Shown one piece after another: positions 3 to 27,165 of a stretch of 28,996 nucleotides of DNA. How positions within the stretch are numbered: the first letter of the stretch is position 1; each line of letters opens with the position of its first letter. Source of the stretch: Candidatus Tectimicrobiota bacterium. GTDB taxonomy: Bacteria; JACPSX01. The notes below the pieces were generated by a model. It had not been told where the DNA came from and searched no databases. It saw only the letters and a list, made by a program, of their open reading frames with translations. The translations under genes and the position numbers were made by a program. Location: NCBI GenBank assembly GCA_016193065.1, contig JACPSX010000045.1, forward strand, positions 1 to 28,996, given 5' to 3'.

Positions 3-101
3 GACCCCCGGGCTTTTCTGTACGACCCGATCATCCGGAAGATTCAGCAGAGCAGTTTTCCCGAGGAACTCGACCGTCTCTACCCGGGAACCCGGCGGTA
101 A
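3..101 (+). CDS. C-terminal tail of an unidentified protein (5' end outside window)
   Basis: An open frame enters from the left edge and ends at TAA 99-101, encoding about 32 residues that end in LYPGTRR. Nothing in this tail identifies a family. The next gene is a MoaD/ThiS-like sulfur carrier. In many anaerobes such a carrier follows a tungsten aldehyde:ferredoxin oxidoreductase, so a pterin-cofactor enzyme is possible, but this rests on context only. The frame is the most protein-like of the three and its stop falls 79 nt before the next start, which fits a gene end. Confidence 0.4.
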   Translation, partial: DPRAFLYDPIIRKIQQSSFPEELDRLYPGTRR

Positions 102-180
102 GCCTTATGGTCGATTTTTTCCGGGCGGCTTGATCCCTGTTGACCGCTGAGGGAGCTTTGCACAGAGGGGCGGACGGAAA

Positions 181-486
181 GTGCAGGTTAAAGTCACTTT
201 CTTCGGCGTAATCCGGGACCTGGTGGGAAACTCTCCTTCCGTGGCGCTGGATGTGCGCGACGGCTGCACCTTGAAAGAGCTCCTGGGCGTTCTGTGCCAG
301 CGCTACGGCCCTGATTTTGGCGCCGGCTTGATGCGGGACGACGGCGGCGTCCAGCCTTTCGTGAACATTGTGCTGAACGGAAAGACGGCGGACAGTTTCA
401 ACCTCGAGGTACCCCTGAGCGGAAACATCGATGCCTGTCAGCAGGTGGACATTTTCATCATACCGGCTTTTTGCGGAGGGCAATGA
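181..486 (+). CDS. MoaD/ThiS-like ubiquitin-fold sulfur carrier, C-terminus GGQ
   Basis: 101-residue beta-grasp protein beginning MQVKVTFFGVIRD, with the usual MoaD/ThiS layout: strand, 'TLKELLGVL' helix, 'PFVNIVLNGK' strand and a C-terminal 'VDIFIIPAFCGGQ'. Family members carry sulfur as a C-terminal Gly-Gly thiocarboxylate for molybdopterin, tungstopterin or thiamine synthesis, or for dedicated pathways. The start is GTG at 181, with a purine-rich GGACGGAAA just upstream. The odd point is an extra Gln after the Gly-Gly, which would need trimming before adenylation if the protein works conventionally. It sits upstream of a molybdopterin oxidoreductase operon, so a role in Mo/W cofactor supply is plausible but inferred. 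Confidence 0.8.
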   Translation: MQVKVTFFGVIRDLVGNSPSVALDVRDGCTLKELLGVLCQRYGPDFGAGLMRDDGGVQPFVNIVLNGKTADSFNLEVPLSGNIDACQQVDIFIIPAFCGGQ

Positions 487-519
487 TTCGCGTGAAGCAG
501 TATTCAAAAGATGACTTGT

Positions 520-557
520 CCACCCCCACCCTTTCCCTCCCTTCAAGGGGGAGGGAT
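520..557. repeat. GC-rich palindromic intergenic repeat (REP-like stem-loop)
   Basis: Between the MoaD-like gene and the TAXI receptor lies a C-rich arm followed by a G-rich arm. TCCCTCCC at 534-541 pairs exactly with GGGAGGGA at 549-556 around a 7-nt loop. The 5' flank CACCCCCACCCT resembles the outer arm of widespread proteobacterial REP-like elements. It could fold in RNA between two co-directional genes. No T-run follows, so it is not a classical intrinsic terminator. Confidence 0.55.
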
Positions 558-608
558 ATTGATTGAAGCTCACGTCGGGAACAGCATCGTCTCTCGGAGG
601 AGGACCCC

Positions 609-1640
609 ATGAAACGGAGATGCTTTTTCTTTAGCTGCTTGTGGCCTTCCATACCTCTCATCGCCCTGATGATCGCGCTTCCACCAGCGGTGTCCTGGAC
701 GGCCAGCACGCCGGCACAAATCGGCATCGGCACCAACCGGGTGGGACTCGCGTATCACGCGGCCGGGGTGGGAATCGCCAAGGTGATCAGCGAAAAGTCC
801 CCCATGAAGGTCCTGGTGAAGCCTTTCGCGGGTCCCAATGCGTGGATGCCGCTGCTGGACTCCGGGGAATTGGAATTAGGACTGATCTCCGGGACGGATG
901 CCGGATGGGCCTTCACAATGGGCCCGGGCTTTCCACGCCAGAACAAGAACCTGCGGGTCTTGATGAGAGGCAACATGATCGACTTCATCGTGGTGGTAAA
1001 AGCCAGCTCCGACTTCCGGAAAGTGAGCGACCTCAAAGCGCGGAGGGTGACAAGCGATTACGGGGGAAACGTGGTTGTAAAACAGATCGTAGAGGCCTAC
1101 CTGGCCTCGGCCGGCCTCGGATGGGATGACGTAAAGCGGGTCCCGGTGCCGGATATCGCGGCTGGATTGCAGGCCCTGCGGGAAGGCCGAGTGGACGCCG
1201 CCTTTGGCGGAGGCCCCGTGACCGGAGCCCTAAGGGAACTGGATGCCGCGATTCCTGTGAGGGCTCTCCCCTTCGAGCTCTCTGCCGCGACCCTGGCGAA
1301 AGCTCGGGAGCTTTTGCCCAGCGCCAGACCCGTGCTCATCAAGAAGGGGACCGGGATCCTCAGAGAGGATATCCAGGCCCTCGAATATCCCATTTTCCTT
1401 GTCGCCTCGGCCAAGCTCGCCGAGAACACCGCCTACGAAGTCGTCAAGGCCCTGTGGGAAAACTACAAGGACCTCCACCCCATCCACCCCTGGCTGAAGG
1501 GCTGGATTCCGGAGGAGATGTTCGATCCCGATCCCCCGGCGCCGTATCACCCCGGGGCCGTGAAATTCTATAGAGAAAAAAATCTGTGGAGTGCGGAAGC
1601 CCAGAAAAACCAAACGGAATTAATCGGGGCTGCGAAATAA
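609..1640 (+). CDS. TAXI-family TRAP transporter solute receptor
   Basis: 343-residue periplasmic binding protein. The N-terminus has a basic MKRR start and a hydrophobic stretch to about residue 30 (signal peptide). The mature part begins with the TAXI-type strand 'IGIGTNRVGLAYHAAGVGIAKVI'. Typical family elements follow: 'LELGLISGTDAGWAF', 'VSDLKARRVTSDYGGN' and 'ALREGRVDAAFGGGPV'. TAXI receptors deliver small carboxylates to a TRAP permease. A strong GGAGGAGG ribosome site lies 6 nt before the ATG at 609. No permease gene is adjacent; the only TRAP permease in the window begins at 27287. It is followed after about 40 nt by the molybdopterin oxidoreductase, so it may supply that enzyme's substrate (inference). 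It is clearly diverged from the two tandem TAXI copies near 13-15 kb. Confidence 0.88.
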   Translation: MKRRCFFFSCLWPSIPLIALMIALPPAVSWTASTPAQIGIGTNRVGLAYHAAGVGIAKVISEKSPMKVLVKPFAGPNAWMPLLDSGELELGLISGTDAGWAFTMGPGFPRQNKNLRVLMRGNMIDFIVVVKASSDFRKVSDLKARRVTSDYGGNVVVKQIVEAYLASAGLGWDDVKRVPVPDIAAGLQALREGRVDAAFGGGPVTGALRELDAAIPVRALPFELSAATLAKARELLPSARPVLIKKGTGILREDIQALEYPIFLVASAKLAENTAYEVVKALWENYKDLHPIHPWLKGWIPEEMFDPDPPAPYHPGAVKFYREKNLWSAEAQKNQTELIGAAK

Positions 1641-1681
1641 AGAATTCCGCCGCGGCGCACCCTGAAAACCCGGGTAATTTT

Positions 1682-4282
1682 ATGAACCAAGAGCTGCACA
1701 AGAAAACAGAGCGGGAAGACCGCTGGATCCCCACCATATGCGGCGAGTGCTATAACGCCTGCTCGATTTTGGTCCGCGTGGTCAATGGCGTCGTCAGAAA
1801 AATCGAAGGGAACCCCGACAGCCCGATCGGCATGGGGAGGCTTTGCCCCAAGGGGACGGCGGGGATCATGACTATGTACGACCCCAACCGGGTCAACGCG
1901 CCGCTCAAGCGCACCAATCCCGAGAAAGGCATCGGCGTCGACCCTCGCTGGCAGGAAATCACCTGGGAAGAAGCCCTCGCCACCGTCGCCGAGAAATTAA
2001 AGAAGGTCCGCCGGGAAGACCCCAAGAAACTGTTCATGATGGGGACCACCACGACGGTCAGCATCCAGAGAGGCGTCAGCGTGTCTTTCGCCACGGCCTT
2101 CGGCACGCCGAATCACTCCTCTTCAGGGGGCGGGCTGCATTGCGGCAACGGGGCTCACTTTGCGGCCGGACTCTTTCACGGATCCTGGTCCATGGTGCCC
2201 GACTTCGAGTACTGCCAGTACGCCATCTACTTTGGCTCCAGCAAGGGTCATGCCGCCGGCCACGCCGCCAACATCAACGCTCAAATGGCCGCCGATGCCA
2301 GGGCCAGAGGCATGAAGTTGGTCGTCGTGGACCCCCTGTGCAGTTTTGCGGCCGCCAAGTCCACGGAATGGGTCCCGATCCGCCCGGGAACGGACGGCGC
2401 CATGGCCCTGGCCATGATCAACACTCTCTTGAACGAGCTCGGAATTTACGACGCCGAATATTTGCAGAAGCATACCAACGCCCCTTACTTGATCGGTCCC
2501 GATGGCTACTATGTGAAAGACCTCGATAGCGGGAAACCCTTGGTGTGGGACCTGGGGACAGGCGCGCCGAAATGCTTTGACGCATCAGACGTCATGGACT
2601 ACGCGCTGGAAGGCGTCTTCGAAGTCCAGGGTACCCGTTGCCAGCCCGCCTTCACCCTTCTCAGGGAGCACGTGAAGAGCTACACGGCCGAGAAGGCCGA
2701 AACGATTTCCACTGTTCCCGCCGCCACCATCCGGAGGCTGGCCAGGGAGTTTGGAGAGCACTCACGCATCGGAAGCACGATCATTATGGATGGCAAAAAG
2801 TTCCCCTTCCGCCCTGTGGCTGCCGTCGTCTTCCGGGGCGCTCAAGGCCACAAGAACTCGGCGCACACCTGCTACTCCATTGAACTCTTGAACCAGATCG
2901 TAGGGTGCTCCGATGTGGTGGGAGGCAGTCTGGGGTTTAACCCGGTTTCCTTCGGCCATCCGGACACCGGACAGCCCGCCTTTGCGCCCACCCCGGCGCC
3001 GGACGGCCTCCTTTGCCCCGGAACCTGGCTGACCCCTCACCGCATTTATCCGCCCCGGGACCCGGCGCCGCCGCAGACCATGGGTCTCAAAGAGATCCAC
3101 CCATTGGGGCAGTCTTCGCCCTACGTGGTGTCGGCCGACCAGGAGGAACTCTGGACCAAGTTCAACCTTTCCTACCGGCCCGAGGTCATGCTGAACTACG
3201 GCGCCAACCCGGTGATGACCATGGGGAATCCCGGAACGGTCATCGAGGCCCTCAAGAAAATCCCGTTTATCGTATCCTCCAATCTGTTCCTCAACGAATT
3301 TACCGACCTGGCGGACATCGTCCTGCCGGACACCTGCTACATGGAGCGTTATGATACCCTGCCCAACTCGCCCCCCATCCTGAACCACCCCGCCGGCATG
3401 GGCGAGTGGGGTTTCGCCATCGGCCAGCCCGTGGTGCCGCGGCAATACCAACGCTGGGACTACGGTGAATTCATCCTGGAAGTCGCCGACCGCATTGGCA
3501 TCACCCGGGAACTGAACGCGGTTTTGAACATGTTCTACGGACTCCAACCTCCCTACGAACTGCCGCCGGACAGAAAGACCACCCGGGAGGAATTGGCCGA
3601 CCTGCACTTGAAGTTCAACTTCGGCGCGGAGCGCGGCCTGCAGTGGTTCAAAGAGCACGGGCTCATCAAGTGGCCCAAAAAACCGGAAGAGGTGTACTGG
3701 CGCATCCACAATAAGTGTCGCGTGCCGGTGTACATGGAGTTTATGAAAAGGACCGGGACCAAGGTCAAGAAAATTCTGGAACTCTTCGATGTCCCGCTGG
3801 ACCTTTCCCACTACGAGGCGCTTCCCGACTGGCATCCGTGCCCCTCCCACCAGGTCAAAGATCCTCAGTTCGACCTTTACGCCTTTTACTACCGAGACGT
3901 TCTGCACACCAACTCGGCCACCATGGAGAACGCCTGGCTCGATGAAGCTTCCGAGATCAATCCATACAGCTACAACATCACGATCCACCCCGCGGTGGGG
4001 AAGAAAAAGGGGATTCAAAACGGGGATCTGATCTGGGTGGAATCCGTGAGCGGGCGCAAAGTCAGGGGCAAGGTCAACCTGAGCGAGGGGATCAACCCCG
4101 AGGGCTTGGCCGTGGCCGGCTGTATGGGACACTGGGCCCTGGGTATGCCGAAGGCCAAGGGAAAAGGGGTCCTGTTCAATGAACTCCTGGAACTGGACAT
4201 GAATCACGCGGATCCAGCCAACATGAACCTGGATCTCTGCGTCAAAGTAAAAATCTACCGGGACCATCAAGGCAGGAGTTGA
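1682..4282 (+). CDS. Molybdopterin oxidoreductase, catalytic subunit of a CISM complex (DMSO reductase family)
   Basis: 866-residue catalytic subunit. The N-terminal [4Fe-4S] motif is complete: C20, C23, C27 and C55 (CGECYNAC followed by GRLCPKG). The bis-MGD domain follows, and C154 in 'GGGLHCGN' is a candidate Mo/W ligand. 'MLNYGANPVMTMGNP' and a C-terminal 'IHPAVGKKKGIQNGDLIWVES' MGD-binding domain complete the family pattern. The ATG at 1682 is preferred. The same frame is open from GTG 1586, but that start would overlap the upstream receptor by 55 nt. The ribosome site before 1682 is weak. No twin-arginine signal is present with either start, so the enzyme probably stays in the cytoplasm, as in SoeABC-like rather than PsrABC-like complexes. 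It is followed by its iron-sulfur and NrfD subunits. The substrate is unknown: sulfur oxyanions, quinone-linked oxidation of an organic compound or other chemistry are all open. Confidence 0.92.
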   Translation: MNQELHKKTEREDRWIPTICGECYNACSILVRVVNGVVRKIEGNPDSPIGMGRLCPKGTAGIMTMYDPNRVNAPLKRTNPEKGIGVDPRWQEITWEEALATVAEKLKKVRREDPKKLFMMGTTTTVSIQRGVSVSFATAFGTPNHSSSGGGLHCGNGAHFAAGLFHGSWSMVPDFEYCQYAIYFGSSKGHAAGHAANINAQMAADARARGMKLVVVDPLCSFAAAKSTEWVPIRPGTDGAMALAMINTLLNELGIYDAEYLQKHTNAPYLIGPDGYYVKDLDSGKPLVWDLGTGAPKCFDASDVMDYALEGVFEVQGTRCQPAFTLLREHVKSYTAEKAETISTVPAATIRRLAREFGEHSRIGSTIIMDGKKFPFRPVAAVVFRGAQGHKNSAHTCYSIELLNQIVGCSDVVGGSLGFNPVSFGHPDTGQPAFAPTPAPDGLLCPGTWLTPHRIYPPRDPAPPQTMGLKEIHPLGQSSPYVVSADQEELWTKFNLSYRPEVMLNYGANPVMTMGNPGTVIEALKKIPFIVSSNLFLNEFTDLADIVLPDTCYMERYDTLPNSPPILNHPAGMGEWGFAIGQPVVPRQYQRWDYGEFILEVADRIGITRELNAVLNMFYGLQPPYELPPDRKTTREELADLHLKFNFGAERGLQWFKEHGLIKWPKKPEEVYWRIHNKCRVPVYMEFMKRTGTKVKKILELFDVPLDLSHYEALPDWHPCPSHQVKDPQFDLYAFYYRDVLHTNSATMENAWLDEASEINPYSYNITIHPAVGKKKGIQNGDLIWVESVSGRKVRGKVNLSEGINPEGLAVAGCMGHWALGMPKAKGKGVLFNELLELDMNHADPANMNLDLCVKVKIYRDHQGRS

Positions 4283-4283
4283 C

Positions 4284-4961
4284 GTGGCTCGCTGGGGAAT
4301 GGTCATTGATTTAGCCCGCTGCATCGGTTGTGCGGGCTGCCAGATGGCGTGCAAGGCCGAAAACGGCACTCCCCCGGGGATCACCTGGTGTCGGGTGGAA
4401 GTGAAGGACATCGGGAATTTTCCCGCCGTACGGAGAATTCCTTTACCGGTCCAGTGCATGCATTGCCGGGAACCGGAGTGTGAGAAAGTTTGCCCCACCG
4501 GGGCTACCGAGAAGACGGAAAGCGGCATTGTCCGTGTCGATTCCGAGCTTTGCATGGGGTGCCGGGCCTGCGTGCTGGCGTGCCCGTACGGAGCCCGCTA
4601 TTTCTATGAAGAGAAAAAGGGGTACTACGAAACACTTTCCCTCTTCGAGGAACTGGCCTACAAACGGCACCGCGTAGGGACGGTGACGAAATGCGATTTC
4701 TGCCAGGAGCGGGTCGAGCGGGGATTGGACCAGGGGCTCAAGCCGGGGGTGGACCGGGAAGCCACACCGGCCTGCGTGTTCAACTGCATGACCAAGGGCC
4801 GCTTCTTCGGAGATCTCGACGACCCCAGGAGTACGGTGTCGTTGCTGGTCGCTTCCGGCCGTGCCTTCCAGCTCCTGCCGGGGCACCCCAGCGACCCGCA
4901 AGTGTACTACCTGACTCCCGGTACTACACTCAGCGCCGGAGGGCGGGAAGATGGCAAGTAA
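4284..4961 (+). CDS. Four-cluster [4Fe-4S] electron-transfer subunit (PsrB/DmsB/NrfC type)
   Basis: 225-residue ferredoxin-like subunit starting at GTG 4284, one base after the catalytic subunit's stop, so translation is probably coupled. Four cysteine groups are visible: C13/C16/C19/C23, C58/C61/C66/C70, C90/C93/C96/C100 and C137/C140/C164/C168. This is the set for four cubane clusters that relay electrons between the Mo/W subunit and the membrane subunit. No signal peptide is present, consistent with a cytoplasmic catalytic module. The stop overlaps the start of the NrfD-like gene. The family assignment is firm; the direction of electron flow is not readable. Confidence 0.93.
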   Translation: MARWGMVIDLARCIGCAGCQMACKAENGTPPGITWCRVEVKDIGNFPAVRRIPLPVQCMHCREPECEKVCPTGATEKTESGIVRVDSELCMGCRACVLACPYGARYFYEEKKGYYETLSLFEELAYKRHRVGTVTKCDFCQERVERGLDQGLKPGVDREATPACVFNCMTKGRFFGDLDDPRSTVSLLVASGRAFQLLPGHPSDPQVYYLTPGTTLSAGGREDGK

Positions 4962-5853
4962 CGCACTGTGGCAAAGGAGCTGGGGCTGGAAGGTCGTCCT
5001 CTACCTCTTCCTGGCGGGTCTCGGGTCGGGCTCGTTCGCGGTGGGAGCCATCGAGGCTTTTTCTTCTGCCCAGAGTTTCGTGGCCAACCTGGGAATCATC
5101 GCCGGAACCTTTCTGGTCTTACTGGGAACCCTATTTCTGCTCTGGGATCTGGGCCGCCCGACCCGTTCTATTTTTGCCCTCCGACGACTCCGAGTGTCCT
5201 GGAGCTCCCGGGGTACCTGGACTCTCACGCTCTTTAGCCTTTTCGGGGCACTGAACAGCATTCTCAGACTAACCGCTGGAAACGGAAGCCTTCCCGAATT
5301 CCAGCCGGTTCTGGACGGCCTGGGGGTCCTGCTGGCCATAGGCGTGGCGGCCTACACCGGCGTCATGCTGGCTTTGATGAGCGGTCGTCCCATGTGGAAC
5401 AGTTCCATCCTGCCGGCTCTTTTCATCACGTCCGCCTTTTCCACGGGAATCGGCCTTCTCGTCGCCCTGGTTTCCCTGCCAGGAAACCAAACCCCGTTTG
5501 AAGCGATGGAAAAGTGGATCGGCGCCGACATTGTGTCAATCCTCCTGGAGCTCCTGCTCATCTACTTTTACCTCTCCGTGAACTTTGCCAGGGCGCCCGA
5601 GTCCGTCCGTATGGTGACCCGGGGTTCCCTGGCCGGACCTTTCTGGCTCGGAGTCCTTGGCGCGGGTCTGTTGATCCCCCTGGGACTCGAATACCTGAAC
5701 CTGACCGGCGGCGGCTCCCCGGTGCTGGGCTTTGTCTCCGGTGTGGGCCTTTTAACCGGGGGCTTGGCACTGCGCTACATCGTTGTCTTTGCGGGAGGCC
5801 GGGCCCCCGTGCTGGCCGGCAACATCCGCTTTCTCGTGCGCCCGGGAGTGTGA
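4951..5853 (+). CDS. NrfD/PsrC-like polytopic membrane subunit
   Basis: 300-residue hydrophobic protein with about eight predicted membrane segments, beginning 'WGWKVVLYLFLAGLGSGSFAVGAIEAF', the typical NrfD/PsrC opening. 'LLWDLGRP' after the second segment is also characteristic. The ATG at 4951 overlaps the end of the iron-sulfur gene by 11 nt, as expected for a tightly coupled CISM operon. The subunit should anchor the two soluble subunits and exchange electrons with the quinone pool. There are no heme-binding motifs. It is the last subunit gene; the next reading frame, a UbiD, starts 23 nt later, which suggests the same transcript. Confidence 0.92.
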   Translation: MASNALWQRSWGWKVVLYLFLAGLGSGSFAVGAIEAFSSAQSFVANLGIIAGTFLVLLGTLFLLWDLGRPTRSIFALRRLRVSWSSRGTWTLTLFSLFGALNSILRLTAGNGSLPEFQPVLDGLGVLLAIGVAAYTGVMLALMSGRPMWNSSILPALFITSAFSTGIGLLVALVSLPGNQTPFEAMEKWIGADIVSILLELLLIYFYLSVNFARAPESVRMVTRGSLAGPFWLGVLGAGLLIPLGLEYLNLTGGGSPVLGFVSGVGLLTGGLALRYIVVFAGGRAPVLAGNIRFLVRPGV

Positions 5854-5876
5854 CGGGCTCTCAAGGGAGAAAGGCC

Positions 5877-7314
5877 GTGTCTAGAGACCTCAGGCAGTGG
5901 TTGCAAGCCGTACAGGATTTGGGAGAGCTCCGGACCATAAAGAACGCCAGTTGGGAGCTGGAGATGGGCGCGCTGGTGGATATCCTCTACGCCAGATCCA
6001 ATGAGGCGCACCCGGCCATTCTTTTCGAAAATATCCCGGGGTATCCCGACAATGCCCGGGTCCTATTCGGACTCGTCGGTTCCCTGCGCCGGCTGGCCCT
6101 TACCTGGAACCTGGACCTCTCTTTTTCCGATCCGATGCAGTTGGTCGAATCCTGCCGGCAGAAGCTGAGAAGGATGACGCCCATTCCTCACCGCTACGTG
6201 GAGCCGCCGCCCACACTTTCCGAAAAACACCGCGGCGGAGAGATCAACCTGTGGGAATTCCCCTCCCCCCTCTGCCACGAGCTGGACGGCGGGCGCTACT
6301 TCGGCACAGGGCACATGGTGATCACCAGCGATCCGGACACCGGCTGGGCTGGCCCACGACGAGCGCACCCTGGGAATCAACATGGTCCCTTCCAGGCACG
6401 GCGTACAACATATGAAAAAGTACCGGGAATACAACCAGCCCTTTCCCATGGCGATCGTCGTGGGCGGTGATCCCCTGCTTTTCCAGGTATCCACCATGGC
6501 GGTCCCCCAGGGAGTTTCGGAACTGGATTTCGCCGGGGGAATTCAAGGGGAAGCCGTGGAAGTGTTCCGGGGAGAGACCACCGGTCTCCCGATTCCCGCC
6601 GGAGCGGAAATCGTCGTGGAAGGGATTTGCCGGCCGGACCGCCCGAGGTCCGAAGGTCCTTTTGGAGAATGGCACGGCTACTACGCCAATGACGGCCTCA
6701 ACCCCTTGCAGAATCCCACCATTGAAGTGCAGAGCGTCTGGCACCGAGAGGACGCGATCCTGTGCTGCTCCCAGACCGGCCGCTACGACGAGAACGCCCT
6801 GCAGCGGGGGGTCACCCGCTCTGCGATGATCTGGAACGAGTTGGAAAAAGGAGGCATTCCGGGGATAAGAGGCGTCTGGGGCCACGAGGCCGGGGCGGGC
6901 CAGTTCATCATCGTGGTGTCCCTGCGCCAGGAATTCAGCGGCCACGCCAAGCAGGCTGCGTCTCTGGTCGTGGAAAAGAGCTCGGGGGCTTCCCTCTGCC
7001 GTTACGTCATCACGGTGGACGAAGACATTAACCCTTCCAACACGAACGAGGTGTTGTGGGCTCTGTCAACCCGTTCCGATCCGGTCCAGTCCATCGAGAT
7101 CCTGAGCAAGAGAAAGGCCGGACCGAACGACCCCATGCGCGGGATGGTCTCCTGGGCGGGATCGGAAGAACTCCTGTCCAAGGCCCTGATCGACTGCTGC
7201 AGGCCCTTTTCCCGGCGGGATCTTTTCCCTCCCGTGGTGGAAAGCAGCGCCGAGATCATGGAGCGGATTCGCAGGAAGTTCGCTGAACAAATCGGCGAGG
7301 AGTGTTTCTTTTGA
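5877..7314 (+). pseudogene. UbiD-family decarboxylase, copy 1, frameshifted at the catalytic motif
   Basis: The GTG at 5877 sits 7 nt after AAGGGAG and opens a UbiD protein (SRDLRQWLQAVQDLG...) that reads normally up to 'ITSDPDTGW' near 6347. The frame is then lost and, unless shifted, stops at 6470. The rest of a normal UbiD continues in the next frame from 'LAHDERTLGINMVPSRHG' to 'EQIGEECFF' at 7314, including the catalytic 'EGPFGEW' motif. Against the intact copy at 24304, about 23 nt are missing, exactly those coding for 'VNAGTYRV', which holds the Asn metal ligand and the catalytic Arg of the prenyl-FMN site. As written, the gene cannot make an active decarboxylase. It is a recent pseudogene, since the rest is well preserved, or an assembly error. 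It follows the Mo-enzyme operon by 23 nt. Confidence 0.88.
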
Positions 7315-13176: not shown

Positions 13177-13227
13177 TCGGGTGACCGGAAAGTCGTCCGC
13201 TTCATGCAAGCCGGGAAGGGAGAAGAC

Positions 13228-14261
13228 ATGAAGACATCGCAGTGGACCCGGACGGGAATGAAAAGGCTTGGCCTTCTGGCGTTTGTCCCGTGCCTCTCGG
13301 TTTTCCTGGGAACCTTGCCGCTCGCCAACGGCGTGGAAGCCCAGGGGAAAGGGACCGGCACTCTCTCCATTGCCACAGACCGCATCGGCACCACCTTCAA
13401 CGCCTTCGGCAGCGGCATAGCGAAAGTCGTGAGCCAGTACTCCCCCATGACGATCGTCGTGCGCCCCTTTTCCGGCCCCGATGCCTGGCTGGCGGCGCTG
13501 AATCAGGGGGAAATGAATCTGGGTGCCGTATCTTCCCCCAGTACCTGGCTGGCGTACCATGCCAAGGCCGCATACAAGGAGCCCCTGACCAACCTCCGCT
13601 TGTTGCGCTCCGGGGAGGGGAGCCTTCTCTTGAGTTTCGTGGTGCCGGCCAAATCCAATATCCGATCCGTAAAAGACCTCAAGGGAAAAAGGGTCTCCTC
13701 CAGTTTCGGCGGGCATGCGACCATTGTTCCGCAGATCACTTCAGCCCTGGAAGCGGCCGGCCTCAAATGGTCCGATGTCGTCCCAATTCCAGTGGTGTCG
13801 GCGGCCGATGCCGTACAGGCTCTCATGGAAGGAAGGCTTGACGCCTCCTGGGCATCGTTCGGGATGCCGCAGGTGCGGCAAGCGGATGCCCGAATCGGGG
13901 TCCGCTATATCCCCCTGGAATCTTCCCCCCAGGCTCTAGAGGTCTACAGGCGGATCGCTTTCCCGGACCTGCAAATAAGAACGGTAAAGGCTGGTTCCGC
14001 CCCGGGAGTGCTGGAAGATACAGCCATGATGACCCCCGACTCCTATCTGATCGCCAACGCCAAGGTGAGCGACGAGGCGGTCCGCACCGTCCTCTCCACA
14101 TTATGGGATCATGAAAAGGATCTGACCGTGATCCATCCGGGCTTGAAAAACTTCACGAACCGCCGTCCATCCCCTACCACCCCGAGGCGGTCCGGTTTTA
14201 CAAGGAGAAGGGGCTCTGGAATTCAAAGGCCGAGGCGGCCCAGAAGAAGCTGCTCCCCTAG
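13228..14261 (+). pseudogene. TAXI-family TRAP solute receptor, tandem copy A, C-terminus frameshifted
   Basis: A TAXI receptor with an N-terminal signal peptide (hydrophobic 'LGLLAFVPCLSVFLGTLP', then 'VEAQGKG'). It is very close to copy B at 14339 along its whole length. After 'VIHPGLKNFTN' (about 14160) the frame is lost. The proper ending 'EPPSIPYHPEAVRFYKEKGLW...' resumes in another frame and stops at TAG 14259-14261. Compared with copy B about 19 nt are missing, around 'VNSAAVT'. Unshifted, the first frame happens to stay open far into copy B and would append unrelated sequence. Start: ATG 13228 with AAGGGAG upstream rather than the in-frame ATG at 13204. It is either a decaying duplicate or an assembly error in a tandem repeat. 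Most of the ligand-binding fold is unaffected. Confidence 0.88.
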
Positions 14262-14338: not shown

Positions 14339-15379
14339 ATGAAAAGGTCTCAGTGGTACAGAGCAGGCGGCGGAAGGTTGATCGTGTCGGTTTTTGCGCT
14401 GTGCCTCGCGGTCTTCCTGGGAATCTTTGCGCTCGCCGGCGGCGTGGAGGCCCAAGGGAAAGGGGGCGGCTCCCTGACCATCGCCACGGACCGCATCGGT
14501 ACCACCTTCAACGCCATGGGCAGCGGCATGGCCAAGGTCGTGAGCCAGTTTTCCCCCATGACGATCATCGTGCGCCCCTTTTCCGGGCCCGACGCCTGGC
14601 TTCCCGCACTGAATCAGGGGGAGTTGAATCTGGGAGCCGTGTCCGCTTTCAGTTCCTGGCAGGCGTATCAGGCCAAGGCCGAGTACAAACAACCTCTGCC
14701 CAACCTCCGCCTGCTGCGCTCCGGGGAAGGGAGCCTGATGTTGGGTTTCGTGGTGCCGGCCAAATCCAATCTCCGCTCCGTAAAAGACCTCAAGGGGAAA
14801 CGGGTGTCGGCCGGGTGGGGTGGTCATACGGCCATCATTTCCTCGGTCACCTCGGCCCTGGAAGCCGCGGGTTTGAAGTGGTCCGATGTCGTGGAAGTTC
14901 CCGTGGTGGGAGCGGCCGACGGCGTGCAGGCCCTCATGGAAGGGAGACTGGACGCTTCCTGGGCATCCTTCGGGATGCCGCAGGTGAGGCAAGCGGACGC
15001 CCGGATCGGGGTCCGCTACATCCCCCTGGAATCCTCTCCGCAGGCGCTGGAGATTTACCGGCGGGTGGCTTTCCCGGGCGCAATGTTGAAGACGGCGAAA
15101 GCCGGCTCCGCGCCCGGAGCGGTGGCGGATACCCCCATGCTGACGTATGACTCCTATTTGATCGCCAACGCCAAAGTGAGCGATGAGGCGGTGCGCTCCG
15201 TCCTCACGACCTTGTGGGAGCATGAGAAGGACCTGACCGTGATCCATCCGGGCCTCAGGGGGTTTGTCAACAGTGCAGCGGTCACGGAGTTTCCGGTCAT
15301 CCCCTACCACCCGGAGGCGATCCGGTTTTACAAGGAGAAAGGGGCCTGGACTCCGAAAGCCGAGGCTATCCAGAAGTAG
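14339..15379 (+). CDS. TAXI-family TRAP transporter solute receptor, tandem copy B (intact)
   Basis: 346-residue periplasmic receptor. It has a signal peptide with hydrophobic 'LIVSVFALCLAVFLGIFALAGG' and mature start near 'VEAQGKGGGSLTIATD'. TAXI hallmarks are 'TIATDRIGTTFNAMGSGMAKVVSQ', 'LNQGELNLGAVSAFSSW', 'VKDLKGKRVSAGWGGH' and the C-terminal 'IPYHPEAIRFYKEKGAW'. GGGAGGAG lies 8 nt before the ATG at 14339. It is the intact partner of the frameshifted copy A. It lies just upstream of the DUF35/thiolase/CoA-ligase genes, which suggests it captures the carboxylate those genes process (inference). A TRAP permease is present only at 27287. Confidence 0.92.
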   Translation: MKRSQWYRAGGGRLIVSVFALCLAVFLGIFALAGGVEAQGKGGGSLTIATDRIGTTFNAMGSGMAKVVSQFSPMTIIVRPFSGPDAWLPALNQGELNLGAVSAFSSWQAYQAKAEYKQPLPNLRLLRSGEGSLMLGFVVPAKSNLRSVKDLKGKRVSAGWGGHTAIISSVTSALEAAGLKWSDVVEVPVVGAADGVQALMEGRLDASWASFGMPQVRQADARIGVRYIPLESSPQALEIYRRVAFPGAMLKTAKAGSAPGAVADTPMLTYDSYLIANAKVSDEAVRSVLTTLWEHEKDLTVIHPGLRGFVNSAAVTEFPVIPYHPEAIRFYKEKGAWTPKAEAIQK

Positions 15380-17000: not shown

Positions 17001-18617
17001 ATGGTAGTGGGTGACGTGATTGATGGAAATGCCCGGCGCTGCCCGGATCGGGTGGCCTGGACCTTCCAAGGAACCCCCTGGACCTGGTCGACGGCAAACG
17101 AACGCGTCAACCGCCTGGCCGATAGCCTCCTGAGCTTTGGACTTGCCCACGAGGATCGGGTCGCGTTCCTGTCTCATAACTCCCATCGCCTGGCTGAAGT
17201 GTATTTCGCCCTGGCCAAAGCCGGTCTCATCGCCGTGCCCATCAACGCCAAATCCGTGAGCCGCGAAATCGCCTTTATCTTGCAGGACGTGGAAGCCCGC
17301 GCTCTTCTTGTGTCCAAGGAGTTTGTGCCCCGGCTCGGTCCCATCGAATCGGATCTGAAGAGACTGCGCTGCGTGATCGGCCTGGACGAAGGCCACGGCT
17401 TGCCGGTTGATTACGAGGACCTCCTTTCGTCGGCCTCGCCGTCTCCGCCGTCCTCCGCGGTTCACGAGGATTCGATCCGGGCGATCAAATATACGAGCGG
17501 CACGACGGGATTTCCCAAGGGTTCCATCAGCACCCACAAGCAGTTTCTCTTTAACATCACCAACTATCTACTCCACTTGCCATTTACCCCCGAGGACCGC
17601 TGTTTGCTCGCCTTGCCGATGCCGGCTGGAGTCGGTGCCCAGTTGTTGGCCGCCTATGCCTACAGGGCATGCCAAACGTTCATCCTCGAGAAATTCGATC
17701 CAGCCCAAGTCCTCGATGCGATCGAGAGGGAGCGGATCACCCGAATCTACCTGGTACCCACCATGATCGCGGCCCTCGTAAACGAGATGATCTCCCGCCC
17801 CAGGGACCTCTCTTCCGTGCGGCTTATGGGCTACGGCGGGTCGCCGGCCCCTATGGCTTTGATTCGCAAAGCCATGGAGGTTTTAGGGTGCCCGTTTTAT
17901 CAGAGCTTCGGCGCCTCCGAAACCGGGGGATTCATCTGCTATTTCACCCCCGAGGATCACCAGCACAAGCTCGGCTCCGGCTGCGAACCGGCTGACTTTC
18001 GGGGAAAGCAGGTGACCCCGTGCGGCCGCGAGGCCCAGGGGTTTCACATCCGAATCGTGAACTCCGAGGGGAATCCCTTACGGGCCGGGGAAGTTGGAGA
18101 GATGGTCGTCCGAGGGGATTCTCTCATGTCGGGCTACTGGAGGCGTCCCCAGGAGACTCGGGAGGTTCTCAGGGACGGCTGGCTGTTCACGGGCGATATG
18201 GCAAAGATCGACGCGGAAGGATACATCCACATCGTCGATCGCAAGCGGGACATGATCATCTCGGGAGGTTTAAACGTTTACTCCGCCGAGGTTGAGTCCG
18301 TAATCCAGGAACATCCGGCGGTTTCCGAAGTCGCCGTCGTGGGAGTTCCCGACCCCTATTGGGGAGAGGCGGTGCGCGCCTTTGTCGTACGAAAGAAGGG
18401 AGAAACCTGCTCGGCAGAGGAACTGCTCCGATTCTGCGCTGATAATCTGGCAAGCTACAAACGTCCCCAATCCATCGTTTTCTTGGAAGCGCTACCGAAA
18501 ACGAGTTCGGGAAAGGTGCTCAAAGTTCAACTGCGCAGCGAGAACTGGGGGGAAAAGCTCTCGCCCGATGCGCCCCATGACCTTTCGCTAAATCCACCCG
18601 CTGGAGGATCGCTATGA
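17001..18617 (+). CDS. AMP-forming acyl/aryl-CoA ligase (ANL superfamily)
   Basis: 538-residue adenylate-forming enzyme. The P-loop 'YTSGTTGFPKG' is at about 164-174. 'YQSFGASETGG' is the A5-type substrate/AMP motif. 'GWLFTGD' and 'IVDRKRDMIISGG' mark the hinge, and K505 in 'KTSSGKVLK' is the catalytic lysine. It activates a carboxylic acid to its CoA ester with ATP. The sequence does not show whether the acid is aromatic or aliphatic. It starts at ATG 17001, 21 nt after the thiolase. The stop overlaps the start of UbiD copy 2 (ATGA at 18614-18617), so the two are translationally coupled. This makes a ligase-then-decarboxylase pair conceivable, as in phthalate or isophthalate degradation (inference). 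Confidence 0.93.
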   Translation: MVVGDVIDGNARRCPDRVAWTFQGTPWTWSTANERVNRLADSLLSFGLAHEDRVAFLSHNSHRLAEVYFALAKAGLIAVPINAKSVSREIAFILQDVEARALLVSKEFVPRLGPIESDLKRLRCVIGLDEGHGLPVDYEDLLSSASPSPPSSAVHEDSIRAIKYTSGTTGFPKGSISTHKQFLFNITNYLLHLPFTPEDRCLLALPMPAGVGAQLLAAYAYRACQTFILEKFDPAQVLDAIERERITRIYLVPTMIAALVNEMISRPRDLSSVRLMGYGGSPAPMALIRKAMEVLGCPFYQSFGASETGGFICYFTPEDHQHKLGSGCEPADFRGKQVTPCGREAQGFHIRIVNSEGNPLRAGEVGEMVVRGDSLMSGYWRRPQETREVLRDGWLFTGDMAKIDAEGYIHIVDRKRDMIISGGLNVYSAEVESVIQEHPAVSEVAVVGVPDPYWGEAVRAFVVRKKGETCSAEELLRFCADNLASYKRPQSIVFLEALPKTSSGKVLKVQLRSENWGEKLSPDAPHDLSLNPPAGGSL

Positions 18618-20221
18618 CAACTTACTACAGAGACTTGAGGGAATATCTGGAGGTTCTCAAAAAAAACGGCAAGCTGGTGACAATCGAGCGCCCCATGAAC
18701 AAGGACACGGAGATGCATCCACTGGTGCGTCTCCAGTTCCGGGGTTTGCCCGAAAAAGACCGGAAAGCGTTTCTGTTTACTCACGTGACGGATTCTACGG
18801 GGAAACGGTATGACGTTCCCGTCGTCGTCGGCTGCATGGCCGCCTCCAGAGAGATCTATGCACACGGGATGAACTGCGAGCTCGATGAGGTCCCCGCTCG
18901 ATGGCACCAGGCCTTGGTCCATCCGATTCCGCCGGTTCTCGTCGACAAAGGACCCATTCAGGAGGTGATTCTCAAAGGCTCAGATCTGGATGCTGCGAGC
19001 GGCATTTCCTTCATTCCAGTCCCCATCTCGACCCCCGGCTTTGACAACGCTCCTTACCTGACCGCCGCCCATTGGATCACCAAAGACCCCGTCACGGGCA
19101 TCCGCAACGTGGGCAACTACCGGGGGATGGTCAAATCTCCCACGCGCCTGGGATGCTTTCCCGGTGCGAAAACCCAGGGGGTGGCAATTCACTGGAGACA
19201 GTGCAAAGAGATGGGAAAACCCTTGGAGGCGGCCATCGCTCTGGGTGTGACCCCGAACATCTCTTACTGTGCAGTCACACGAATCCCTCACGGCAGGGAT
19301 GAGCTTGAAGTCGCGGGAGGAATCGCCGGGAGCCCGGTCGAACTGGTCAAATGCCAGACGGTGGATCTGGAGGTGCCGGCTCACTCGGAAATCGTCATTG
19401 AGGGAATAATCCCCACGGACTCAGGGGAAATCGAGGGTCCTTTCGGGGAATTCACCGGGTTCATGGGGCCCAGGGGAGTTTCCCTGTACTTCAATGTGAC
19501 CTGCATCACGATGCGCTCCGCCCCCATTTACCAGGCTTTCCTCAGCCAGTTCCCCCCCAGTGAGAGCAGCAAAATCCGGCAGATGGGCCGGGAGCACGTG
19601 CTCAAGAAAACGCTCTCTGTGGACTGTGAGATCCCGGGTGTCCTCGATGTGGCCCTCCTCGAACCCACGGGCACTTACGGATTCGTCGTGGTTCGGGTCT
19701 CCCGGCGCAGTCCAGAGGAAGGGGAAAGACTCAAGAAGGCTGTGAAAAGCATCATGAAAACCTGGCCAGCAAAGACCTTTGTTCTGGTCGATGAGGATAT
19801 CGATCCCCGGGATGCAGACTCGGTGAACTGGGCCATGAGCTTCCGCATGCAGCCCCATAGGGACATGGAGATTTTTGCCTCAGAGTCCCCGACCACGCTC
19901 GATTGTTCCATCAGCCCGCACACCGATATGCGCACCGAATCAGCCCTGGGTAAGGAGACGATGGCCTCCGTGCTCCTGATCGATGCCCGCGCCAAGTGGG
20001 ATTACCCTCCCGTATCTTTGCCGAAGAAAGAGTTCATGGAGCGGGCGCTCCAGATCTGGAACGAGGAGGGTCTGCCCGCTTTGAACAACTTGAAGGCCCC
20101 GTGGTTTGGATACTCCATGGGCTATTGGACGGAAGAGGACGCACAGGAGGCGGATCTGGCCGTGCAGAGCCGGTACTTTGAGACCGGGAAAAAGTTCGAG
20201 GCACGCCGGGAAAAGCTCTGA
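18614..20221 (+). CDS. UbiD-family prenyl-FMN-dependent decarboxylase, copy 2
   Basis: 535-residue UbiD enzyme, intact. The prenyl-FMN/metal motif 'RNVGNYRG' gives N165 and R170, 'LEVAGG' supplies E232, and 'EGPFGEF' supplies E274 and E279. These match the Asn/Glu metal ligands and the Arg-Glu-Glu catalytic trio of Fdc1/UbiD. The enzyme reversibly decarboxylates an unsaturated or aromatic acid and needs prenyl-FMN from UbiX, which is not encoded here. It is about 50 residues longer than copy 3 and clearly from another subgroup. The ATG overlaps the ligase stop by 4 nt. The coupling suggests the substrate may be the ligase's CoA ester, but a free acid is equally possible from sequence. Confidence 0.93.
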   Translation: MTTYYRDLREYLEVLKKNGKLVTIERPMNKDTEMHPLVRLQFRGLPEKDRKAFLFTHVTDSTGKRYDVPVVVGCMAASREIYAHGMNCELDEVPARWHQALVHPIPPVLVDKGPIQEVILKGSDLDAASGISFIPVPISTPGFDNAPYLTAAHWITKDPVTGIRNVGNYRGMVKSPTRLGCFPGAKTQGVAIHWRQCKEMGKPLEAAIALGVTPNISYCAVTRIPHGRDELEVAGGIAGSPVELVKCQTVDLEVPAHSEIVIEGIIPTDSGEIEGPFGEFTGFMGPRGVSLYFNVTCITMRSAPIYQAFLSQFPPSESSKIRQMGREHVLKKTLSVDCEIPGVLDVALLEPTGTYGFVVVRVSRRSPEEGERLKKAVKSIMKTWPAKTFVLVDEDIDPRDADSVNWAMSFRMQPHRDMEIFASESPTTLDCSISPHTDMRTESALGKETMASVLLIDARAKWDYPPVSLPKKEFMERALQIWNEEGLPALNNLKAPWFGYSMGYWTEEDAQEADLAVQSRYFETGKKFEARREKL

Positions 20222-24303: not shown

Positions 24304-25752
24304 ATGAAATACAGAGATCTACGAGAATGGATCGACCAGGTGAAGGCCATGGACCAGCTGCAGCTTATCCACGGAGCCCAGTGGGACCTGGAAATCGGCG
24401 GGCTTACGGAAATCATCTGCAAGAAGTTCAAGCCGCCCCCGGCCCTGCTTTTCGACAATATCCCGGGTTATCCTGAGGGCCACCGGGTTCTCGTCAACAT
24501 GCTCGACAGCGTTGAGAGGCTGGCCCTGACCACGGGTCTCGACCCGCAAATCACCCCGGTTCAATTCATCCACAAGTGGCGCGAAAAAATCAAGCGCCTG
24601 AGCCCTGTCCCTCCCACAGTGGTAAAGGACGGGCCTGTACTTGAAAATGTTCGCACGGGCTCCCAGGTCAATGTTCTGGAGTTTCCCGCCCCCAGGTGGC
24701 ACGAGATGGACGGCGGGCGCTACCTGGGAACGGCGAACTTGGTCATTACCCGAGACCCCGATGAAGGCTGGGTGAACGCCGGAACTTACCGGGTCATGGT
24801 CCAGAACGAAAATACCGTTTCGGTTTACATTTCTCCGGGGAAACAGGGCCGCATTCAGCGTCAAAAGTATTTTGATCTCAACAGACCCTGTCCGGTGGCC
24901 ATCGTCTTTGGCCAGGATCCTCTCCTTTTTGTCGCGGCCAGTACGGATGTCCCCTACGGAATGAGTGAATACGAATACGCCGGGGGGATCCGAGAGGAAC
25001 CGATCTCCGTGATCCCCGGACCCGTGACCGGGCTGCCGATCCCCGCCCACGCGGAGATTGCCGTGGAAGGAGAAATGCATCCCGGAGATCTCATGCCCGA
25101 GGGCCCCTTCGGGGAGTGGACCGGGTACTATGCGAGCGCCCGCAGATCCGAACCGGTGGTCCGGGTGCAATCCATCATGTTCCGCAACGATCCGATACTG
25201 TGCGGCGCCCCCCCCATGCGTCCCTCGGTGGGCCAGGGCTTTTACCGCTCCCTGGAGCGCTCCGCCCTCATCTGGAACGCATTGGAAGAGGCCGGGGTCC
25301 CCGATGTGACGGCGGTCTATTCTCACCCTGCCGCCGGCCGCTTCCTCACCATCGTCGCCATTCGCCAGCGCTATCCCGGGCACGCGAAGCAGGCCGCTGT
25401 CGTCGCCGGCCAGTGCAGGGCCGGAGGCTACCTGGGACGCTACGTCATCGTGGTGGATGAGGATGTGGATATCTACGACACCGAAGAGGTTCTCTGGGCC
25501 CTGTGCACACGGAGCGATCCGGAACGGTCCATCGATATCCTGCGGCGCTGCTGGAGCGGTCCCTTGGATCCGATCATCCCCAAGGGGCGCAAGGGGTTTA
25601 ATTCCCGAGCGATCATCGACGCCACCCGCCCCTTCGAGTGGAAAGACGAGTTCCCTCCGGTGAGCGAGATCAGCAACGCCCTGAAAGATCAGCTGGAAGG
25701 AAAGTGGCGCGCTCTACTCTCCGGTCTGGCCCGCGAGGAGCAAAATCCGTGA
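24304..25752 (+). CDS. UbiD-family prenyl-FMN-dependent decarboxylase, copy 3 (intact)
   Basis: 482-residue UbiD enzyme and the intact relative of broken copy 1. The active-site motif 'GWVNAGTYR' gives N158 and R163, 'SEYEYAGG' gives E224, and 'EGPFGEW' gives E266 and E271, with the spacing expected for the Arg-Glu-Glu catalytic trio. Where copy 1 has His in 'SRHGV', this copy has Q181 in 'GKQGR'. The position aligns with a metal-ligand His in many UbiDs. Start: ATG 24304, preceded by GGGAG; the frame continues upstream into the receptor gene and is ignored. It lies between a TctC receptor and an M29-like hydrolase, suggesting uptake followed by decarboxylation. Confidence 0.93.
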   Translation: MKYRDLREWIDQVKAMDQLQLIHGAQWDLEIGGLTEIICKKFKPPPALLFDNIPGYPEGHRVLVNMLDSVERLALTTGLDPQITPVQFIHKWREKIKRLSPVPPTVVKDGPVLENVRTGSQVNVLEFPAPRWHEMDGGRYLGTANLVITRDPDEGWVNAGTYRVMVQNENTVSVYISPGKQGRIQRQKYFDLNRPCPVAIVFGQDPLLFVAASTDVPYGMSEYEYAGGIREEPISVIPGPVTGLPIPAHAEIAVEGEMHPGDLMPEGPFGEWTGYYASARRSEPVVRVQSIMFRNDPILCGAPPMRPSVGQGFYRSLERSALIWNALEEAGVPDVTAVYSHPAAGRFLTIVAIRQRYPGHAKQAAVVAGQCRAGGYLGRYVIVVDEDVDIYDTEEVLWALCTRSDPERSIDILRRCWSGPLDPIIPKGRKGFNSRAIIDATRPFEWKDEFPPVSEISNALKDQLEGKWRALLSGLAREEQNP

Positions 25753-25797
25753 GCTTCCTCTTGTCCCACGGATCCTTACCATTGGAAAGGGATGCAG

Positions 25798-27165
25798 ATG
25801 TGCGAGCAGCCGTCGACGAACAGTTGGAACTATGAAGACCTGCTGCAGGAGAGCAGACCCAAGATCCGCGACATCTCGGATCTGCTCCCCTATGCCGAGT
25901 ACCTGGCCGCTCAGCCCGAGCGCCGCACGACCCACATCGGCTTCAACGGCTACGGGAGCACCAAGGCGGGCGATCGGGTCTTAATCGCGGTCGATAGCGA
26001 GTACGACGACCGCGTGGTCGCCGCCGTGGCCGCGGCCCTGAGAGCGCGCGGGGCCAAAGTGGACGTCCTGCGGATCGACAAGGGGCCGGTTCGGGAGTTC
26101 GACGAGCTGGATGAGATCCGCGTCATCATCCGGCGCGGACCGTGGCAGGACAACCCGCGACGCTGGGAGGGGATCCCCTGGGTCGAAGAACTCGCCCATG
26201 CGAATAAATACGACCTGCTCATTCACGGGAAGGGGGGGCCCATTCCCAAGACCGATTACCGCTATGAAGCGATCCCCTGGCTCGGCGCGGAGCAATTTGC
26301 CTGCCCGGCCACCATATATCCCAGAGACGTTCACCTACTGATCAACCAGAAAACCTGGGACATGCTGTGGAGGCGCGGCAAGGGCGGACGCGTCCGGATT
26401 ATGGATCCCGAGGGGACGGACCTCACCTACACGCTCCACGAGGGGTACTACGACGGGCGCTACGGCTTCAATGAGAACCCGGTCTGCGGGCACCTCTTCG
26501 GCCATCCGCCCACCCCGATGATCGATCCCGAGGACGCGGCGGGCATCATCAAGGGAACCACGAACCACTTTTCCCGGCCCTTTTCTCCCATCACGGTGCA
26601 AATGGAGGCCGGGCAAGTGACCCGGGTGGAAGGAGGTGGCGCCTACGGGGCGGCCTGGAAGGACCTCCTGGAGGAGACCCGCAAGATCAAGTACCCGTGC
26701 TTTCCCCGCAGCGGTCTCTTCTGGCTCTGGGAAGTGGCCATCGGTACAAATCCCAAGGTCCGCCGGCCCCGCAACATCCATCTGCATTCCTCGGGCGGAC
26801 ACGAGTGGGAGCGGCGCCGCTCCGGGATCATTCACCTGGGGCTCGGGACCTTGTGGCGGGGTCCGGAAGAATACTGGGCCGCGGAGAACAAGCTCCCCTA
26901 CGGCCACCTCCACGTTCACCTGATGTTTCCCACCCTGGAGGTGACCACCAAGGAAGGGGGGACTCTCGTGGTCATAAATCGAGGGCGGCTCACGGCGATG
27001 GATGATCCGGAAGTCAGGAACCTGGCCGCGAAATACGGGGATCCCGACCGGCTCTTGAGCGAAGACTGGATCCCGGACATTCCGGGGATCTCCACCGAGG
27101 GGGAATACGAGTCCTATGCCAGAGATCCGGCGGGCTGGCAGTACAGAGGGATTCGCGGTCAATAA
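25798..27165 (+). CDS. M29-like metallohydrolase / NicX-like protein
   Basis: 455-residue protein related to the aminopeptidase T (M29) and 2,5-dihydroxypyridine 5,6-dioxygenase (NicX) group. An N-terminal Rossmann-like half begins 'GDRVLIAVDSEYDDRVVAAVAAALRARGAKVDVLRID'. The C-terminal metal half shows 'VTRVEGGGAYG', 'LWEVAIGTNP', 'SGIIHLGLGTLWRG' and 'HLHVHLMFPTLEV'. These correspond to the family's Glu, Glu, His and His-x-Asp ligands. The last motif has His where M29 enzymes have Asp. It is longer than typical members (about 350-410 residues). ATG 25798 fits the upstream GGAAAGGG better than ATG 25792, two codons earlier. It follows UbiD copy 3 by 45 nt. Function: hydrolysis or ring cleavage of a small substrate; not determinable. 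Confidence 0.82.
   Translation: MCEQPSTNSWNYEDLLQESRPKIRDISDLLPYAEYLAAQPERRTTHIGFNGYGSTKAGDRVLIAVDSEYDDRVVAAVAAALRARGAKVDVLRIDKGPVREFDELDEIRVIIRRGPWQDNPRRWEGIPWVEELAHANKYDLLIHGKGGPIPKTDYRYEAIPWLGAEQFACPATIYPRDVHLLINQKTWDMLWRRGKGGRVRIMDPEGTDLTYTLHEGYYDGRYGFNENPVCGHLFGHPPTPMIDPEDAAGIIKGTTNHFSRPFSPITVQMEAGQVTRVEGGGAYGAAWKDLLEETRKIKYPCFPRSGLFWLWEVAIGTNPKVRRPRNIHLHSSGGHEWERRRSGIIHLGLGTLWRGPEEYWAAENKLPYGHLHVHLMFPTLEVTTKEGGTLVVINRGRLTAMDDPEVRNLAAKYGDPDRLLSEDWIPDIPGISTEGEYESYARDPAGWQYRGIRGQ

Follow-up and report, generated by a model that had tools for sequence, protein, structure and literature searches.

A frame break that removes the catalytic motif from a UbiD-family gene in the window analysed here (a stretch of 28,996 nt) is most likely not a real biological feature. 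We consider it probable that the break arose as a local error in assembling a draft genome from a metagenome. The source is a draft with the appearance of a metagenome bin (2.9 Mb in 294 contigs, 86% complete), in which the window lies on contig C20, and lesions of the same class recur in unrelated genes of the assembly at a level above that of a control genome.

The affected gene, UbiD copy 1 (5877-7314, + strand), is one UbiD-family gene read in two frames. Its N-terminal piece (5877..6347, +) has a GTG start, is read in frame +3 and ends in DPDTGW (HMVITSDPDTGW); it matches UbiD_N (PF20695, 2e-10) and profile positions 8-54 of the UbiD core (PF01977, 1.1e-7). The C-terminal piece (6349..7314, +), which is read in frame +1 and begins with LAHDERTLGINMVPSRHGV, contains the rest of the core (PF01977 positions 75-205, 1.4e-38), the EGPFGE motif and UbiD_C (PF20696, 4.9e-23), and ends with a stop at 7314. 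All of these Pfam matches are above the cut-offs. Copy 1 as assembled therefore has UbiD_N, the UbiD core in two pieces and UbiD_C, in frame +3 to 6347 and in frame +1 from 6349, with no continuous reading frame. The original prediction placed the break right after DTGW, and this was confirmed, as the frame changes at 6347 (last codon of the first piece TGG, 6345-6347), with the junction (6347..6349, +) ambiguous by 1 nt due to the G at 6348. The estimate of about 23 missing nucleotides of the form 3n+2 was likewise borne out by the alignment pairs with homologues, in which the median was 23 nt and the form was 3n+2 in all 89 of 89 pairs. What is absent corresponds to the eight codons of [VI]NxGTYRx less one base. 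In an alignment showing approximately 40 intact relatives, the gap covers exactly eight columns and the segment is invariant in length, and the lost motif is the one that had been named, present as VNAGTYRV in the intact copy 2. The parts of copy 1 flanking the junction had been described as well conserved, and according to both Pfam and the alignment the two halves are otherwise intact, with no further break in their frames.

The missing NxGxYR segment, which relatives shown in the alignment retain, carries the catalytic Arg as well as an Asn that we take to be a metal ligand. The EX4(E/D) pair is kept in the second piece (EGPFGE, SEGPFGEWHGYY), and from the EX4E spacing we take it to be the site of the two network Glu residues. 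An Arg173-Glu277-Glu282 network is needed for UbiD catalysis, with the Arg located in the NxGTYR motif (PMC5818171). Because the missing motif holds the Arg of this network, no normal enzyme could be made from copy 1 as assembled. No targeting is needed to explain why the catalytic motif was affected: active-site residues are distributed along the protein, and a simple calculation gives about one in ten as the share of random losses of eight residues in a UbiD protein that would touch one of them.

We also considered the genomic context of copy 1 and its relatives. Directly upstream (1673..5853, +) are genes for a molybdopterin oxidoreductase, a 4Fe-4S protein and an NrfD-like membrane subunit, as identified by NCBIfam. 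An intact copy 1 would specify a UbiD-type (de)carboxylase of the usual prenyl-FMN-dependent kind, next to a molybdopterin/NrfD redox complex. A comparable four-gene set with an intact UbiD carrying VNVGTYRS is found in a betaproteobacterial metagenome genome (L082:5383-11818), although the gene order differs between window positions 1673-7314 and this distant locus. Redox-coupled (de)carboxylation is a possible role for the set. Copy 2, also located in the window (24304..25752, +), is the closest relative of copy 1, at 47% protein identity; it is intact and has VNAGTYRV at 24772. Copy 3 (18614..20221, +) is intact and more distant, with NVGNYRG at 19106. Downstream of copy 2, positions 25792-27165 encode a 457-aa protein that matches nothing in NCBIfam and whose Pfam matches all fall below the cut-offs. 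Comparison with orthologous loci had been suggested as a check. The counterpart set in L082 has the motif; close orthologues of copy 1 were found neither in 58 further genomes nor in a collection of genome contigs (best match 43% identity), and over all collections searched the best protein identity was approximately 47%. Because such orthologues were not found, substitution rates are unusable for dating the event. A near-identical intact version of copy 1 was sought among the other contigs of the genome, and none was found. UbiD-family genes are unusually numerous both in the genome of this window (G000; approximately 17) and in G047 (39 matches).

A second break was detected in the window, in a TAXI (NMT1_3) solute-binding gene (13204..14260, +) whose frame is broken near 14165 (14160-14170) with approximately 19 nt absent. 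This loss was sized against the tandem paralogue at 14339-15379, and the break was also found by blastx. The paralogue is intact and shares 80% DNA identity with the broken gene. Following these two short out-of-frame losses within 29 kb, we widened the test and sampled approximately 1.0 Mb of the contigs of the genome, 434 kb of which had homologues, using blastx against three sets of proteins: those of relatives, those encoded in the sample and those of E. coli K-12. The scan produced 20 candidates in the 434 kb, about eight of which proved on inspection to be losses of a segment without N; tgt was added by the E. coli comparison, giving approximately nine such losses in the approximately 1.0 Mb sampled, with estimated sizes of approximately 19 to 166 nt and in unrelated genes. 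Contig C20 has two of them, in UbiD copy 1 (23 nt) and the TAXI gene. The others, all without N, affect a second broken UbiD gene (C162:14441, ~157-166 nt missing), CaiB (C123:506, ~72 nt), DctM (C3:2220, ~41 nt), an ABC ATPase (C150:4775, ~116 nt, comprising the signature segment), DegT (C44:1017) and a LivJ-like protein (C48:37816), each of the last two lacking a segment, and tgt (C250:15320, ~157 nt). Homologue support ranges from 89 pairs for UbiD copy 1 down to one for LivJ, DegT and tgt, with the losses in LivJ, DegT, DctM, CaiB, TAXI and tgt resting on one or two homologues. Several breaks with single support were dropped because they turned out to be shadow frames on the antisense strand or a fusion of two genes (L176, L133). 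SecA on L131 (contig C14) was not counted as a break, as no second piece was found; its homology (L131:329-2356) stops at E. coli residue 715 while the contig runs on, and the gene may be truncated.

When 390 kb of G047, another UbiD-rich genome, were scanned identically as a control, the 213 kb with homologues yielded one weak candidate, versus approximately nine losses in 434 kb here. At two further breaks in our sample the frame is lost at a run of N (4 N on C28; nuoH on C21, with 56 N), and another is a slip of one base within a G homopolymer. Decaying genes usually gather stops and small indels. No premature stop supported by at least three homologues was found in the sampled contigs; because of this, and because there was only one single-base slip, the lesions do not resemble decay, and their pattern fits contig joins that drop unassembled sequence. 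Housekeeping genes are affected in the case of tgt, which is a housekeeping gene although absent from some bacteria, and of nuoH at its N gap, while four long essential genes, rpoB, dnaE, leuS and most of rpoC, showed no break, fewer than one being expected in these genes at the observed rate. The sample contains 11 N runs of 4-60 nt each, and only one pair of their flanks overlaps, by 5 nt. In nuoH, the 56 N represent approximately 87 nt relative to the closest homologue, approximately 31 nt more than the length of the run, and gap sizes can therefore err by tens of bases.

In the case of copy 1, an intact UbiD gene was probably assembled in two pieces, which were then joined without the intervening 23 bases. 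Scaffold gap sizes are variable and imprecise, and an estimate of approximately zero would let two pieces abut without N, with the unassembled stretch lost; a true gap of approximately 23 nt could be estimated as zero in this way and the pieces directly joined. We infer both this exact assembler step, which was not itself observed, and the presence of an intact copy 1 in the organism.

Alternatively, copy 1 could have become a pseudogene through a genuine deletion of 23 nt, so recent that no further decay has followed, a loss that might be tolerable given the many UbiD genes of this genome. The original prediction had offered two explanations, a very recent event and an error of assembly, and this choice still holds, with assembly error now favoured and a real deletion in our view unlikely. 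A deletion is consistent with the junction without N, with a missing length that is exact and out of frame, and with the intact remainder of the gene, which a recent event requires; redundancy among the UbiD genes is also plausible. However, the class of lesion recurs across the genome, tgt included, without premature stops and with a single one-base slip, and a second lesion lies on the 29-kb contig of copy 1 itself. The claim that copy 1 has biologically lost its motif is not supported, given this TAXI break and the many breaks sampled elsewhere, which are not matched by premature stops. The junction sequence does not favour a deletion either. A short direct repeat there had been proposed to fit slippage, and GGCTGG and GCTGG are indeed present and adjacent at 6342-6352, but slippage between two copies would have consumed one of them and both remain; this mechanism is not supported. 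The fold energy at the junction is ordinary, with no hairpin or palindrome better than shuffled sequence (z -0.09), and no nearby short repeats bracket the missing bases.

The deletion could also be present in only part of the population, with the consensus having taken the deleted variant. Such a strain mixture would be in keeping with a fragmented draft of 294 contigs that resembles a metagenome bin and would likewise leave a junction without N, but a second version of the locus was not found among the contigs of the genome and the lesions are scattered over many unrelated genes, and we regard it as very unlikely. We give almost no credence to a functional split, in which two polypeptides or a programmed frameshift would produce a UbiD-like protein with another role. 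The second piece does have an ATG at 6382 that is open for 310 aa; however, a frameshift could not restore the missing eight residues, the segment has a constant length in every relative of the displayed alignment, and the break falls inside the conserved UbiD core rather than between domains.

The assembly error that we favour for copy 1 calls for caution: in a draft genome from a metagenome, a join that lost bases can take out a catalytic motif and pass for sharp evolutionary evidence. Read support is needed before claims about gene content or pseudogenes are made from this assembly, and its sequence needs to be handled carefully. If the deletion were real, copy 1 would count as a young pseudogene of an ordinary kind, one member of a large family of paralogues.

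Local assembly errors yielding wrong protein sequences have been documented in metagenome assemblies (Chen et al., 2020; PMC7111523). The present case resembles those errors in having scaffold N gaps, wrong or incomplete coding sequences at joins and a defect that is invisible without read mapping, and differs from them in that a segment is typically lost here without leaving any N. Compared with the prenyl-FMN-dependent UbiD decarboxylases, for which the best solved match is 7pda and which include A. niger Fdc1 (PMC5818171), the assembled copy 1 differs in lacking [VI]NxGTYR with its catalytic Arg and in being out of frame thereafter, whereas it shares with them the domain order UbiD_N, core, UbiD_C and the EGPFGE of the Glu277/Glu282 pair.
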